Source: Heliophilum fasciatum
Lineage (GTDB): Bacteria > Bacillota > Desulfitobacteriia > Heliobacteriales > Heliobacteriaceae
DNA length: 52,670 nucleotides
NCBI RefSeq assembly: GCF_004341395.1
Contig: NZ_SLXT01000022.1
Location: 1-52,670 of the forward strand
Direction: 5' to 3'
Shown one piece after another: positions 35,064 through 50,949 of this stretch. The first letter of the stretch is position 1, and each line of letters starts with the position of its first letter. The notes beneath the pieces are model-generated. The model did not search any database. It was given only the letters and a program-made list of their open reading frames with translations, and had not been told where the DNA came from. Both the position numbers and the translations under genes were made by a program.

Positions 35064-35306
35064 GGTGCGACGATCCCCTCTTTAATTTCCAAACTGATTA
35101 CCTCATTGTACCAAATAAAGTGATTGTTTAACCATTGTAGAGATGTAATAAAGCCGGAGTCAAGTCCTGAATGAATTCGGTTGCGTCCAAGCCAGGTCTG
35201 CGTCCAAGCCCTAGGGCTAATCCCGTCACCCTGATGCATAGGATACTAAGGATATGGTTTGCGTACTTACGACAAGCCCTCAGACCAAAAGACAGGGGGA
35301 GCTGCG

Positions 35307-37202
35307 ATGGATTTTTTAGGGAAACTGGAACAGTACCGACAGCGTGGTCAAGAACTCGCGTGGAGCGGGTCCTTTCGTGAGTACCTCGCCCTGGTCAAAG
35401 CGCGGCCCTACATCACTCAACTCTCCCACTCGCGCATCTACAACATGATCGTCAGCGAAGGCGTCGTAGAAAACGAAGATGTCCGCCGCTACAAGTTTTT
35501 TGAACAGGATATTTTCGGCCTGGACCGGACCCTCGAAACCCTCGTCGAAGAATACTTTCACTCTGCTGCCCGGCGCACGGAAGTGCGTAAGCGCATTTTG
35601 CTGCTCATGGGGCCTGTCTCTGGCGGGAAGTCCACCATCGTCATGATGCTTAAACGCGGCATGGAGCGCTTCAGCCGCACCGAACAAGGCGCCATCTTCG
35701 CGATTGCCGGTTGCCCCATGCACGAAGAGCCGCTCCACTTAATACCCGAGGAACTGCGCGGCGACTTTCAGCGCGAATACGGCGTGTATATCGAAGGGAG
35801 CCTTTGCCCTCATTGCCGCATGCGCATGGAAACGGAATGGCACGGGCGCATCGAAGATGTTACGGTTGAACGCATCTTTCTGTCGGAAGAAAACCGCATC
35901 GGCATCGGCACCTTCAGCCCCTCAGACCCGAAAAGCCAGGATATTGCCGATCTGACCGGTTCCATCGACTTTGCTACCATCGCCGAATACGGCTCGGAAT
36001 CAGACCCGCGGGCCTACCGTTTTGACGGAGAACTCAATAAAGCCAATAGAGGTTTAATGGAATTCCAAGAAATGTTAAAAGCGGATGAAAAATTCCTTTG
36101 GCACCTTTTATCCCTTTCCCAAGAAGGCAACTTCAAAGCCGGGCGCTTCGCGTTGATCAGCGCCGACGAACTGATCGTCGCGCATACCAACGAAAACGAA
36201 TACAAAAGCTTTGTCAGCAACAAAAAAAATGAAGCGCTCCTTTCCCGCATGATCGTCGTCAAAATCCCCTATAACCTCAAAGTCAGCGACGAAGTGAAAA
36301 TCTACGAAAAACTGATCGGCCAATCCGATCTCCAACATATCCATATCGCACCGCACGCCTTGCACACGGCCGCTATTTTTTCCGTGCTGTCCCGGCTGAG
36401 CGAATCCAAAAAACAGGGGATGGACCTCGTCAAAAAGATGCGCCTCTACGATGGGGAGGCCGTCGAAGGCTTCAAACCCAAAGACCTTACGGAACTCCAG
36501 AATGAATCGCCTGATGAAGGCATGAGCGGTGTGGACCCCCGTTACGTGATCAACCGCATCTCCACAGCGCTGATCCGCAAAGACACGGTCTGCATCAATG
36601 CCCTCGATGTGCTGCGGGCGCTCAAAGACGGCCTCGATCAGCACCCCTCGATCAGCAAAGAAGAACGGGAGCGCCTCCTTAACTTTATCGGCGCCGCCCG
36701 CCGCGAGTTTGACGATATGGCCAAAAAAGAAGTGCAAAAAGCCTTTGTCTACGCTTACGAAGAATCAGCGAAAACCATCTTGTGCAACTATCTCGACAAC
36801 GTTGAAGCCTTTTGCAACGCCAGCAAGCTCAAAGACCCAATCACCGATGAAGAGCTCGATCCCGATGAAAAATTAATGCGCTCTATCGAAGAACAAATTG
36901 GCATCAGCGAAAACGCCAAAAAAGCCTTCCGCGAAGAAATCCTGATTCGCCTTTCCACCTACGCCCGCAAAGGCAAATCCTTTGAATATACCTCCCACGA
37001 ACGGCTCAAAGAAGCCATTGAGAAAAAGCTCTTTGCCGATCTGAAAGACGTCGTCAAGATCACCACGTCCACGCGCACGCCCGATGGCACGCAACTCAAG
37101 CGAATTAATGAAGTAACCGCTCGCTTAATTGAAGAACATGGGTACTGCCCGGCCTGCGCCAACGAACTTTTGCGCTACATCGGATCGCTGCTCAATCGAT
37201 AG
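35307..37202 (+). CDS. prkA: PrkA-type serine protein kinase / AAA protease-like protein
   Basis: A 631-residue protein. ATG 35307 follows GGGGGAGC; the frame is open from 35259 without a site. An AAA+ core occupies the first 380 residues, with Walker A MGPVSGGKST and a Walker B-like region further on (FALISADELIVAH). The remaining part resembles the kinase-like C-terminal domain of PrkA. The CPHCRMRME cysteines are conserved in the family. prkA, yhbH and spoVR form a conserved stationary-phase and sporulation set (yeaG, yeaH and ycgB in E. coli). It is the first gene, 14 bp before yhbH. Confidence 0.93.
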   Translation: MDFLGKLEQYRQRGQELAWSGSFREYLALVKARPYITQLSHSRIYNMIVSEGVVENEDVRRYKFFEQDIFGLDRTLETLVEEYFHSAARRTEVRKRILLLMGPVSGGKSTIVMMLKRGMERFSRTEQGAIFAIAGCPMHEEPLHLIPEELRGDFQREYGVYIEGSLCPHCRMRMETEWHGRIEDVTVERIFLSEENRIGIGTFSPSDPKSQDIADLTGSIDFATIAEYGSESDPRAYRFDGELNKANRGLMEFQEMLKADEKFLWHLLSLSQEGNFKAGRFALISADELIVAHTNENEYKSFVSNKKNEALLSRMIVVKIPYNLKVSDEVKIYEKLIGQSDLQHIHIAPHALHTAAIFSVLSRLSESKKQGMDLVKKMRLYDGEAVEGFKPKDLTELQNESPDEGMSGVDPRYVINRISTALIRKDTVCINALDVLRALKDGLDQHPSISKEERERLLNFIGAARREFDDMAKKEVQKAFVYAYEESAKTILCNYLDNVEAFCNASKLKDPITDEELDPDEKLMRSIEEQIGISENAKKAFREEILIRLSTYARKGKSFEYTSHERLKEAIEKKLFADLKDVVKITTSTRTPDGTQLKRINEVTARLIEEHGYCPACANELLRYIGSLLNR

Positions 37203-37216
37203 AAGGAGGGAGGCTC

Positions 37217-38437
37217 TTGCGATCACCGATCCCGCCCGGCGGCCCTCATCCTTCCCAGTCTGTACAACTCGCCGATGAGATTCCCCTCTCCACCCAGGGC
37301 GACTTCAGCATTTCCCGGGAAGACTGGTCGCTCCATCGGAAAGGCCAAATCGACCAGGCCCGTCATCAGACCCGCGTCAAAGAAGCCCTGCGGAAAAATC
37401 TGCACCAGATCATCGCCGAAGAAGGCATCGTTCTCAGCGACGGCAAAAAAACGATTAAAGTACCCATCCGCTCGCTGGAAGAATATCGGTTTCGTTATGA
37501 TCACAACAAACAAAAGCATGCCGGCCAAGGTGACGGCGACAGTGCCGTCGGCGATGTGATCCGGCGTGATCCCGGCGGCAGCGGCGGTAAAAGTACCGGC
37601 GGTGCCGGATCGGACCCGGGCCTTGACTACTACGAAACGGAAGTCAACATCGAAGAGCTTCAGGACCTGCTTTTTACCGACCTTAGCTTACCAAACCTGG
37701 AGCGCAAGCAATCGCCGGAGTTGGAAACGGCCACTTATCAGTTTGTTGATATCCGCAAAAAAGGATTAAGCGGCAACATCGATCGCAAGCGTACGCTGCT
37801 GGAAGCGTTCAAACGCAATGCCCGTTTCGGCAAACCGGGCTTTTCACCGGTCACGCAAGACGATCTGCGCTATAAAACGTGGGAAATCCAGCCGCAATAC
37901 GAATCCAACGCCGTGGTGCTGGCCATCATGGACACTTCGGGGTCCATGGGCTCCTTTGAAAAATACATTGCCCGCACCTTTTTCTTTTGGATGACCCGGT
38001 TTTTGCGTACCAAATACCGCGCCGTGCAGATCCGTTTTATCGCCCACCATACGGAAGCCAAAGAAGTGACAGAAGAAGAGTTTTTCACCAAAGGTGAATC
38101 CGGCGGTACCCGTTGTTCTTCGGCGTACCAATATGCCTTGCAGTTGATCGATGCCCACTATCCACCGAAGGATTATAATATTTATGCCTTTCACTTTTCC
38201 GACGGCGATAACCTTTCGACGGACAACGAACAATGCGTACGCTTGATTCAGCAACTCTTGGAAAAAACCAATCAGTTTGGTTACGGTGAGATCGTTCGTT
38301 CCCATTTTTCCAGCAGCTTAATGAATGCCTTACGGAAAATTCAGCATCCCCATTTTACCGCCTTAACCGTCCGCGAACGAGGCGAAGTCTATCATGCCCT
38401 TTGTACCTTTTTCAAACCAACGCCAGCGGTCCCTTGA
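37217..38437 (+). CDS. yhbH: YhbH/YeaH family (DUF444) protein
   Basis: A 406-residue protein starting at TTG 37217 after GAAGGAGGGAGG. N-terminal region (ISREDWSLHRKGQIDQARH) and central linker are followed by a von Willebrand A-like domain (about 230-400) with the metal-ion site MDTSGSMGSFEK and SDGDNLSTDN. The Gly-rich stretch at about 108-135 is flexible. In other bacteria this protein works with PrkA and SpoVR, and in Bacillus it is a sporulation protein. Its target is not known. Confidence 0.92.
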   Translation: MRSPIPPGGPHPSQSVQLADEIPLSTQGDFSISREDWSLHRKGQIDQARHQTRVKEALRKNLHQIIAEEGIVLSDGKKTIKVPIRSLEEYRFRYDHNKQKHAGQGDGDSAVGDVIRRDPGGSGGKSTGGAGSDPGLDYYETEVNIEELQDLLFTDLSLPNLERKQSPELETATYQFVDIRKKGLSGNIDRKRTLLEAFKRNARFGKPGFSPVTQDDLRYKTWEIQPQYESNAVVLAIMDTSGSMGSFEKYIARTFFFWMTRFLRTKYRAVQIRFIAHHTEAKEVTEEEFFTKGESGGTRCSSAYQYALQLIDAHYPPKDYNIYAFHFSDGDNLSTDNEQCVRLIQQLLEKTNQFGYGEIVRSHFSSSLMNALRKIQHPHFTALTVRERGEVYHALCTFFKPTPAVP

Positions 38438-38489
38438 CGGGTTGGCATAGTCCCAAGGGGATGTACCATCAACAAACCATCAATAAATA

Positions 38490-38529
38490 GGAAGCGTCCG
38501 GCTTGAACAGCAGCGGGCGCTTTTTTTTG
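38490..38529 (+). terminator. Terminator after yhbH
   Basis: AAGCGTCC / GGGCGCTT with a T run, about 50 bp past the stop. It would separate prkA-yhbH from the HD-GYP gene. Confidence 0.7.
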
Positions 38530-38641
38530 TTGTAAGAATCCTGTAAGTAGCCAGTGGTAGCATGGGCAATAATAAGTATGTCCATGGAAGTTATGGTTCG
38601 AGAAATCGTAATTATCGCGCTCAGTTGGGGGGGTGGGGAAA

Positions 38642-39739
38642 ATGCCAAGAATGGCCATTACCATGAAATATCAGCAAGGACAGCGGATTGCTGAAGATGT
38701 CTATATGCAAGACGGACGCTTGGTATTTCCTAAAGGTACATTGTTGACGCAAACCATATATAACCAGATTCGCCAATGGGAAAAATCTGGTTTGTTGCTT
38801 AGTTCCGAAACCACCGACAACTATGAACAACAATATACGTCCCTGCGACGCCCTGACTATTGTGAAACGTATATTCAATCGTTGCTGGAAGGTGTCGATG
38901 ATCTCTTTGAAAAGATACGCAAAGGAGACGCGATCAAAGAGAATCAACTGCGTGATTTGGCGAAAGATATCTATATCAATGTACATGCGGACGAGCGGCT
39001 CAGCATGCGCGTGCCGCGGGGGTGGACGCCGGAAAACTACATCGTTCATCACTCCGTCGATGTTTGCTTGCTAAGCGCTGTGATTGCTTTGCATCTGGGG
39101 TTACCGGAAGCGGAAACCGTCGAATTGATTACCGGGGCGCTGCTCCATGATCTCGGTATGTATGATATGCCCCAGTATCTCATGAAGAAAAAAGGCAAAT
39201 TATCACCGCCGGAATTGGCCAGTTTGCATCAACATCCGACCCGGGGTATTGAAAAAATCGAAAAAAGCGGCATCAAACTAACGCCGAATGAACGTGCTTG
39301 TATCCTTTCCCATCATGAGCGCACGAATGGGCAAGGGTACCCGCAGGGCTTACCTTATGCGTTGATCCCCCTAGGCGCGCGCATCGTCGCCGTGGCGGAC
39401 AGCTTCTCCGCAATGACTGCCCAACGGGCCTATCGGAACCGTATGGATTATTACCGGGCCATTTATGAGATCAGTGATGGCGACGGGGGACATCTGGATC
39501 GCCACGTAGTTCACGTTTTATCGGGCCAATTGCGCCATCTTATCCTCAATACACGGGTTCGGCTCTCCACCGGTGAGATCGGTTACGTTGTCGAATTTCA
39601 TGAGAACAATCCCTTGCAACCATCGGTGCTGATTACGGAAGACGCGCAAGGCCAGCCGGTAGTCAGTCGGTATTTGCGTAATCTTCAAGAAAAGCAAACC
39701 GTGTTTATCCAAGCAGTGATGGATGCACATGAAACTTGA
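38642..39739 (+). CDS. HD-GYP domain cyclic-di-GMP phosphodiesterase
   Basis: A 365-residue protein, ATG 38642 after a GGGGGGGTGGGG region. The first 60 residues contain the small module GQRIAEDVYMQDGRLVFPKG. The HD-GYP domain (about 140-300) has ALLHDLGMYDMP with the HD metal site, LHQHPTRG, and the signature HHERTNGQGYPQGLP. It should hydrolyse c-di-GMP to pGpG or GMP. It sits between yhbH and spoVR, which is not a usual place. A short C-terminal extension binds no recognised ligand. Confidence 0.92.
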   Translation: MPRMAITMKYQQGQRIAEDVYMQDGRLVFPKGTLLTQTIYNQIRQWEKSGLLLSSETTDNYEQQYTSLRRPDYCETYIQSLLEGVDDLFEKIRKGDAIKENQLRDLAKDIYINVHADERLSMRVPRGWTPENYIVHHSVDVCLLSAVIALHLGLPEAETVELITGALLHDLGMYDMPQYLMKKKGKLSPPELASLHQHPTRGIEKIEKSGIKLTPNERACILSHHERTNGQGYPQGLPYALIPLGARIVAVADSFSAMTAQRAYRNRMDYYRAIYEISDGDGGHLDRHVVHVLSGQLRHLILNTRVRLSTGEIGYVVEFHENNPLQPSVLITEDAQGQPVVSRYLRNLQEKQTVFIQAVMDAHET

Positions 39740-39768
39740 AATTCTTTTTACAAAATCGTCAAAAACCG

Positions 39769-39797
39769 TTGACAAAATCACAGGGCAGGCGTAGGAT
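39769..39797 (+). promoter_or_regulatory. Promoter of the structured RNA
   Basis: Perfect TTGACA at 39769-39774, a 17-base spacer and TAGGAT at 39792-39797. Transcription would begin near 39804. Confidence 0.65.
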
Positions 39798-39803
39798 ATA
39801 ACC

Positions 39804-39955
39804 AAGAGGAACAGCCAGAGGGGCTGGCCCCAACGTCTAGAAATAGACGGTGGGCAGAGGACAGCGGAACGCATGGCTGAGCCTCATCATAACCCGGTCA
39901 GCCAGACCGGAAGAGGGACGTACCTTAAGAAAGGTAGGTCCCTCGCTATTTTATG
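39804..39955 (+). ncRNA. Unidentified structured RNA (leader or stand-alone) before spoVR
   Basis: A closing helix GAGG-aa-CAGCC / GGCTG-ag-CCTC (39806-39816 with 39875-39885) encloses a hairpin GGGG / CCCC (39820-39831) and CGTCTA-GAAA-TAGACG (39834-39849, a GNRA loop). Outside the helix a 6-bp hairpin CCGGTC-AGCCA-GACCGG follows (39894-39910). A 13-bp stem with one mismatch (39913-39919 and 39921-39926 with 39931-39936 and 39938-39944) and a U-rich tail looks like a terminator. The quasi-symmetric ACAGCC, GGGCAG and ACAGCG elements recall metal-type riboswitches, but no class could be assigned. It ends about 65 bases before spoVR. Confidence 0.55.
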
Positions 39956-40017
39956 GCAGAAAAAAAGGGGAATCCCTCGCTTCGCTTGCATAGACATAAG
40001 CAGAGGAGGGATGCCTA

Positions 40018-41429
40018 TGGCACAGGACCCAACCCAAGCGACCATGCAGCGCATGGCCGTCTCAATTCCCCAGATCATGGCCATCGCGCGCAATTTTGGT
40101 CTTGACTTTTATGATATGCGCTTTGAGATTTGTCCCGCCGAAGTGATTTATACCTTAGGCGCATACGGTATGCCGACGCGCTTTAATCATTGGTCCTTCG
40201 GCAAAACCTTTCATAAGATGAAGATGGCCTACGACTTTAACCTGTCGCGCATTTATGAACTGGTCATTAACTCCAATCCCTGCTACGCTTTTTTGCTGGA
40301 AGGCAACACGGCCATTCAAAATGAATTGATTGTTGCCCATGTTCTTGCTCATTGTGATTTTTTCAAGCACAACTGTGCTTTTGCCGGTACGGCTCGGTAC
40401 ATGGTGGATTCCATGGCCGCATCGGCGGACCGGATTCGCAACTACGAGTTCCAGTACGGATTGGACAATGTGGAAAAGTTCCTCGATGCAGCGATGGCCA
40501 TTCAAGAACATATCGATCCTCACTATCGAACGATCAAGCAGCCTGCTCCAACGAAGCTTGGCCCAAGCCCGGCCCAAGCCGCCAGTGATCCGGCCGAATC
40601 ACCGGCCGTATTAAGCCCAAGCCCGGCTGGGGCCAGTAAAGACGCAGCCGATGCAGGCAAAAAAGCTGCAGAATCCGGCAAAGATCCCGTGAAACCACGT
40701 AGACCGGCGCAACCTCAAAAAGATCTTCTCCTGTTTATCATGGAGCACGGTCATTTTCTCACCGAATGGCAGCAAGACATTCTTTCAATTATACGCAGTG
40801 AAATGTGCTATTTTTGGCCGCAGATGCGTACCAAAGTGATGAATGAGGGGTGGGCCACTTTTTGGCATTTAAGGATCATGCGGGAAATGGACGTCAGTCC
40901 TGCCGATGATTGGGAATGGGCCAAAATGCACGCTCAGGTGGTGCAACCGTCGAGGCAATCGCTGAATCCCTACCATCTGGGATTACGTATCTTTGAAGAT
41001 ATTGAACGACGGTGGGGGCGGGAGAAGATCTTCGAAGTTCGTGAGATGGAAACCGATACGGCCTTCCTGCGCAATTACCTTACTCGTGAACTGGTTGACG
41101 AACTGGATTTGTACCTGTACAAAAAGGTCGGCAATCAGTGGCAGATCGTGGAGAAAAACTGGGAAGCCATTCGCGATGAGTTGGTCCATCGCTTGACCAA
41201 CGCCGGCTTCCCGACGATCTATGTGGAAGACGGTGACGAAAACCGTGCCGGTGAACTGCGGCTTCGTCATGCTTTCGAAGGCGTCGAGTTGGATATCCCC
41301 TATCTGGAACGAACATTGCCTCACGTCTATACGCTGTGGGGACGGACGGTTCATTTTGAAACGGTATTGGAAGGGAAGAAAGTGCTCTTCTCTTATAATG
41401 GGGAAAAGGTACAACGCAAGTACATTTAG
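40018..41429 (+). CDS. spoVR: SpoVR family protein
   Basis: A 470-residue protein; ATG 40018 follows GAGGAGGGATGCCT. The longer frame from 39873 would cross the structured RNA and has no site. Core blocks of the family are present: ARNFGLDFYDMRFEI, YGMPTRFNHWSFGK, YAFLLEGNT, VLAHCDFFKHN, LSIIRSEMCYFWPQMRTKVMNEGWATFWH. An Ala/Pro/Lys-rich linker of about 60 residues (about 175-235) interrupts the middle. In Bacillus, SpoVR affects the spore cortex; with PrkA and YhbH it belongs to a conserved stress module. Terminator follows. Confidence 0.92.
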
Positions 41430-50703: not shown

Positions 50704-50816
50704 CCAGCCGTAAACATGATATGGAATTTTTTTCGGTCCCCTGATGACTAGCAGGAAAAAGCAGCGTTGATGAAGAAGCTTAGTCCGTGGTATCAAGGGG
50801 ATAACCAAATAGTGCA

Positions 50817-50916
50817 CCGCTGGGGGAGCTCGGGTCGGACCGGGCTGAGAGGGAACAGTTGGCGATTGTTCCGACCCTTTTAACCTGATCTGGAAAATAC
50901 CAGCGTAGGAAAGCGG
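50817..50916 (+). promoter_or_regulatory. TPP riboswitch (THI box)
   Basis: It contains the conserved GGGCTGAGAGG, the ACCTGATCTGG block and the ACCAGCGTAGGAAAG end, with P1 CCGCT / AGCGG closing the element. It lies upstream of thiC with a terminator hairpin between. On binding thiamine pyrophosphate it should favour the terminator. Confidence 0.97.
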
Positions 50917-50949
50917 GAAAGAGCTCATCGTATGAACAAACATGTATAT

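Follow-up and report, generated by a model that had tools for sequence, protein, structure and literature searches.

An uncatalogued structured small RNA of about 150 nt is encoded on the plus strand at 39804-39953 of the window (the whole 52,670-nt stretch of Heliophilum fasciatum DNA analysed here), between an HD-GYP gene and spoVR (Table 1). We consider it probable, from comparison of homologous loci, that this RNA acts in trans as a stand-alone small regulatory RNA and represents a new family, confined as far as we searched to phototrophic heliobacteria. The earlier note on this DNA had proposed an unidentified structured RNA at the site, and that proposal was borne out: no Rfam family matched, homologues occur in eight genomes, and the stems are conserved with covariation.

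Table 1 Features of the RNA locus in the window.
Feature	Position	Strand	Evidence or remark
HD-GYP-type gene, upstream neighbour (Pfam HD_5/HD)	38633..39739	+	homologous (43% identity) to the Heliorestis acidaminivorans gene that precedes the RNA
-35 element TTGACA of dedicated sigma-A-type promoter	39769..39774	+	promoter scan; TTGAC[A/G/T] in 8/8 homologues
-10 element TAGGAT	39792..39797	+	TANNAT-type hexamer, then exactly 6 nt and AAGAGG, in 8/8 homologues
Structured small RNA	39804..39953	+	homologues in 8 genomes, common fold, covariation
5' domain (P1-P4)	39806..39885	+	folding, single-sequence folds, covariation
P1 GAGG/CCUC	39806-39809 with 39882-39885	+	
P2 CAGCCA/UGGCUG	39812-39817 with 39874-39879	+	
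P3 GCUG/CAGC	39823-39826 with 39862-39865	+	
P4 hairpin CGUCUA-GAAA-UAGACG	39834-39849	+	
Most conserved inner strand GGACAGCGGAACG	39859..39871	+	invariant alignment columns
P5 hairpin CCGGUC-AGCCA-GACCGG (CCGGUC/GACCGG)	39894..39910	+	conservation less strict in the Heliorestis group
Terminator-like hairpin GAGGGACGUACCUU/AAGGUAGGUCCCUC with weak U tail CUAUUUUA	39913..39953	+	fold, covariation, homologues scanned as terminators
CATAGACAT, candidate -10 element of a separate spoVR promoter	39989..39997	+	conservation of the CATAGAC motif; function inferred
spoVR, downstream neighbour	40017..41429	+	Pfam SpoVR, E 1.5e-134

Promoter, fold and covariation

The promoter scan of the window separated TTGACA and TAGGAT by 17 nt, and the arrangement TTGACN-17 nt-TANNAT-6 nt-AAGAGG was identical in all eight homologues around a spacer whose sequence has diverged. 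On sequence evidence, the RNA therefore has the promoter of its own that is expected of an intergenic bacterial sRNA, in agreement with the sigma-A promoter called by the earlier note. Because the geometry is fixed in all eight, we place the start at the base of helix P1, most likely at about 39804, the first A of AAGAGG and two bases before P1. The RNA had previously been given a start at 39769, but that position is the -35 box. The block ACAGGGCAGG (39780-39789) belongs to the promoter spacer and lies outside the predicted transcript.

Folding of 39804-39953 gave an energy of -71.8 kcal/mol (z -6.8), and none of 200 shuffled sequences was as low. In the predicted fold of the window sequence, P1 and P2 form the base of a long imperfect hairpin enclosing P3 and P4, followed by P5 and the terminator-like hairpin. 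When each of the eight sequences was folded alone, P1-P2, the inner hairpin and the terminator-like hairpin were recovered every time (z -3.9 to -7.8), and the P5 region of the genome labelled G001 folded differently. RNAalifold gave 40 consensus pairs, 14 of them changed on both sides, a number reached by 0 of 500 shuffles; 93.5% of cells were paired, compared with 38-50% when partners were slid by 1-3 columns. The terminator helix (helix 5) contributed seven pairs with changes on both sides, and P1 and P2 are nearly invariant, so that most of the covariation is contributed by P4 and the terminator hairpin. The conserved secondary structure expected of an intergenic bacterial sRNA is thus present, and the stems on which the earlier note had staked its reading are conserved and covarying across homologous loci.

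In relatives the most conserved inner strand reads G[GA]ACRGC[GA]G[GA]NCG, in which CRGC is the 3' side of P3 and the whole strand occupies the 3' side of the inner loop. The GNRA loop noted previously does cap P4 in the window, as GAAA, but other homologues have different P4 loops. In the proposed terminator, the stem (7+6 bp at 39913-39944, then CUAUUUUA) is strong, conserved and covarying, but its U tract is weak, and a simple terminator scan, which listed the stem in three relatives, omitted the window's own plus-strand stem and those of both Heliobacterium genomes.

A further stretch downstream can also pair perfectly, over 7 bp, with the 3' strand of P2 (UGGCUGA/UCAGCCA, window 39874-39880 with 39898-39904). 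A second P2 partner was also seen in the Heliorestis group (CUGGUCC/GGACCAG, L027 and L028, minus strand, ~1500-1535), at a position that differs from that in the window. The second 7-bp partner may reflect chance or a folding intermediate.

Distribution and gene neighbourhood

An initial DNA search of relatives returned four clear homologues, all in the same family. A covariance-model search then found exactly one copy in each of eight of the nine heliobacterial genomes, with E values of 3.8e-18 to 5.7e-23 in six of them and of 2.3e-5 and 0.0047 in two Heliorestis-group genomes, where the weaker copies are syntenic. The model was built from five sequences, so that five of the six strong matches are training sequences and match by construction; the sixth, in G008, is independent. 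Named genomes include Heliobacterium mobile (G006), H. chlorum (G002) and Heliorestis acidaminivorans (G005), along with G004, which we take to be H. modesticaldum Ice1.

The same type of search found no copy in 74 other genomes of the class. Among 398 genomes of the phylum only family members matched, leaving none in the 394 from outside the family, under stricter filters that also missed the G001 copy. When 84,980 species were scanned for the exact pattern, the only ones returned were Heliobacterium mobile, H. chlorum and Heliorestis acidaminivorans; the scan missed other RNA-carrying genomes of the family, whose records may be outside the collection or left out. Viral contigs and plasmids gave no match to the RNA. 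In G003, the ninth heliobacterial genome, a weak match (E 0.59) was rejected because it lies inside a hemL-like coding gene, and at the syntenic site an unfiltered search of the HD-GYP-spoVR locus gave no credible match. The bacteriochlorophyll gene bchN is present in all eight RNA-carrying genomes, and G003 (87% complete) has neither bchN nor the RNA. This co-occurrence is a correlation confounded by ancestry and, with a single genome on the negative side, only a lead.

In all eight genomes spoVR lies downstream of the RNA on the same strand. The next gene after the RNA encodes a response-regulator/GGDEF protein (RR-GGDEF, a diguanylate cyclase) in six of the eight. No close RR-GGDEF orthologue was found in the window's genome, where spoVR follows directly, and in G004 a decayed receiver-domain remnant (L041 4420-4600), the product of recent gene loss, sits between the RNA and spoVR; only in these two genomes is spoVR the next intact gene. 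Upstream, the RNA is preceded by an HD-GYP gene in the window and G005, by a NUBPL/MinD-like ATPase gene in G002, G004, G006, G007 and G008, and by a ThrE-like gene in G001. In G003 the HD-GYP gene adjoins spoVR with no RNA between them. From these arrangements we infer that the ancestral order was probably HD-GYP, RNA, RR-GGDEF, spoVR, with later losses.

The motif CATAGAC occurs just upstream of spoVR in six genomes (the window and contigs L044, L047, L045, L063 and L041), and a similar CATATCTAT is found in G003. In several genomes an apparent terminator lies between RR-GGDEF and this motif. Together, the conserved motif and the apparent preceding terminator point to a separate spoVR promoter. 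The motif is also a candidate -10 element for a sporulation sigma factor.

Stand-alone RNA or leader

The main alternative to a stand-alone RNA is a cis-acting leader. The RNA would then form the 5' untranslated region of the gene that follows it, ancestrally RR-GGDEF and in the window spoVR, and whether polymerase passes the terminator would depend on a protein or another kind of signal that acts on P1-P4. We regard this as unlikely. Strand and order are the same in 8/8 genomes, the RNA always lying upstream of, and on the same strand as, RR-GGDEF and/or spoVR, which favours a leader and counts against a stand-alone RNA. However, a cis-acting attenuator leader is expected to precede the same gene throughout, and across the eight genomes the downstream gene is not the same. 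The RNA is also kept intact in the two genomes in which RR-GGDEF is absent (the window's) or decayed (G004), and in Heliobacterium about 220 less conserved nucleotides separate the RNA from the gene.

The earlier note had placed the RNA as a leader preceding spoVR, with a small RNA as the alternative. The RNA is probably not a spoVR leader: the adjacent gene varies, spoVR has its own conserved motif, often with an apparent separate terminator upstream, and in one species pair conservation ends at the RNA terminator. Between H. mobile and H. chlorum, identity is 97.4% inside the RNA and 60.2% over the next ~100 nt. Between G004 and G007 it is 92.5% in the RNA and 90.7% in the following 75 nt, a pair too close to define an edge; with this flank nearly as conserved as the RNA, the sharp 3' boundary rests on one species pair. 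The small-RNA alternative is the better reading.

A leader working by attenuation would also need a switch. When the 3' arm of the terminator was removed in silico, P1-P3 were unaffected in seven of the eight homologues, so that the analysis revealed no antiterminator shared by the homologues; in those seven P1-P3 can coexist with the terminator, which argues against a conserved switch. The exception, G001, in which P1-P3 were remodelled in the transcript truncated at the terminator, speaks for a leader. No upstream segment is conserved as a pairing partner for the 5' arm of the terminator; the partner varies between genomes, unlike the arrangement in a classical attenuator.

Features of the Heliorestis group also speak for a leader. 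There the 7-bp alternative pairing CUGGUCC/GGACCAG could displace P1/P2, and in two genomes RR-GGDEF starts ~20 nt past the hairpin, with its ribosome-binding site ~15-20 nt past the terminator stem. As so short a distance leaves no room for a separate promoter, read-through from the RNA's promoter is the likeliest source of RR-GGDEF transcripts in these genomes, and dual use is possible; in Heliorestis the RNA may also act as a leader.

For the stand-alone RNA that we favour, RNA polymerase with the housekeeping sigma factor would start at AAGAGG (39804), and the transcript would fold into the long imperfect 5' hairpin (P1-P4), the small hairpin P5 and the intrinsic-terminator-like hairpin, ending near 39953. 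If expressed, the RNA would presumably act in trans, most likely by mRNA pairing or protein binding through the invariant GGACRGC-GG-CG strand together with exposed segments nearby. In a crude test, pairing of exposed strands with the start regions of spoVR and RR-GGDEF was not clearly above that of shuffled sequences.

Service as a decoy for a protein, such as a sponge that takes up CsrA through GGA motifs around P3, appears very improbable. In most homologues the 3' strand of P3 does lie between two GGA motifs and CsrA is encoded in all the genomes, but the motifs are few, one is absent in G004, none is a hairpin-loop ANGGA site, and G003 has CsrA yet lacks the RNA. As CsrA and Hfq are both encoded in each of the nine genomes, having them does not set the RNA-carrying genomes apart.

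We consider a new class of metabolite or metal riboswitch, along the lines of NiCo, extremely unlikely: a compact conserved domain with an invariant purine-rich internal strand does precede a terminator-like hairpin, but neither NiCo nor any other riboswitch matched this RNA even at E 10, the adjacent genes do not form a transport or metabolic set from a single pathway, a mutually exclusive fold shared by the homologues was not found, and the RNA is a single-copy element of a single family. The ligand-binding core suggested by the earlier note is likewise unsupported, since the homologues share no switch linking the folded domain to the terminator, and the repeated ACAG and GGCAG blocks cited for it are partly promoter (ACAGGGCAGG) and partly non-conserved.

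A coding reading was also rejected. Although an open frame in register with spoVR begins within the RNA (39873), H. mobile and H. chlorum differ by a 1-nt indel in the equivalent stretch, and the frame overlaps covarying helices.

Comparison with known RNAs and significance

Searches of the window and its relatives against Rfam 15, at gathering and relaxed thresholds (E up to 10), gave only sub-threshold chance matches, so that no known family, NiCo included, accounts for the RNA. It is similar to 6S RNA (RF00013) in length, in its long imperfect hairpin and as an independent housekeeping-type transcript; it differs in having no RF00013 match and no large central bubble. Identity with 6S RNA was rejected, as 6S RNA scored over the cut-off at other loci in 9/9 genomes and at this locus in none. 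Like the NiCo riboswitch, which the earlier note had named for checking, it is a multi-helix RNA with GGCAG/ACAG-like blocks, but cmscan did not report it as NiCo at the gathering threshold or up to E 10, no metal-transport gene adjoins it, and its helices form one stacked imperfect hairpin with separate 3' hairpins. It also resembles lineage-specific intergenic sRNAs of the Bacillota, which share a sigma-A promoter, a structured 5' domain, an intrinsic-terminator-like end, single copy number and a narrow distribution, although the present RNA is unrelated in sequence or structure to any Rfam 15 family.

Heliobacteria are phototrophic, endospore-forming Bacillota, and this single-copy RNA is kept, with promoter and fold intact, in all eight phototrophic genomes examined. 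In the literature searched, with most subscription journals outside reach, we found no earlier report of the RNA or its transcript and no regulatory-RNA work on heliobacteria. The RNA offers a well-defined gene for deletion or mapping, and an entry for it as a new RNA family could follow. In sporulating B. subtilis, SpoVR was reported to crosslink RNA (PMC12456014), so SpoVR is a candidate partner that merits testing. It is a highly speculative idea that the RNA is a phototrophy-linked regulator unique to heliobacteria, possibly partnered by a protein encoded nearby such as SpoVR, and ties spore formation or c-di-GMP signalling to the phototrophic lifestyle.

Several further features of these loci were noted. 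The genes prkA, yhbH (DUF444) and spoVR are often neighbours elsewhere; in the window (35259-41429) the HD-GYP gene and the RNA break up the series. The window's spoVR is unsplit and intact. In H. chlorum and Heliorestis acidaminivorans spoVR is in two parts on different contigs (L069 68-955 and L070 6611-7192; L071 7566-8426 and L072 3566-4144, respectively), split after ...RTKIMNEGW at the same site in both and away from contig ends, and in Heliorestis three serine-recombinase-like ORFs lie near the N-terminal part. By analogy, the split resembles that caused by a skin-type element excised during sporulation. Elsewhere in the window, a TPP riboswitch (RF00059, 74.4 bits) occupies 50812-50928 on the plus strand.
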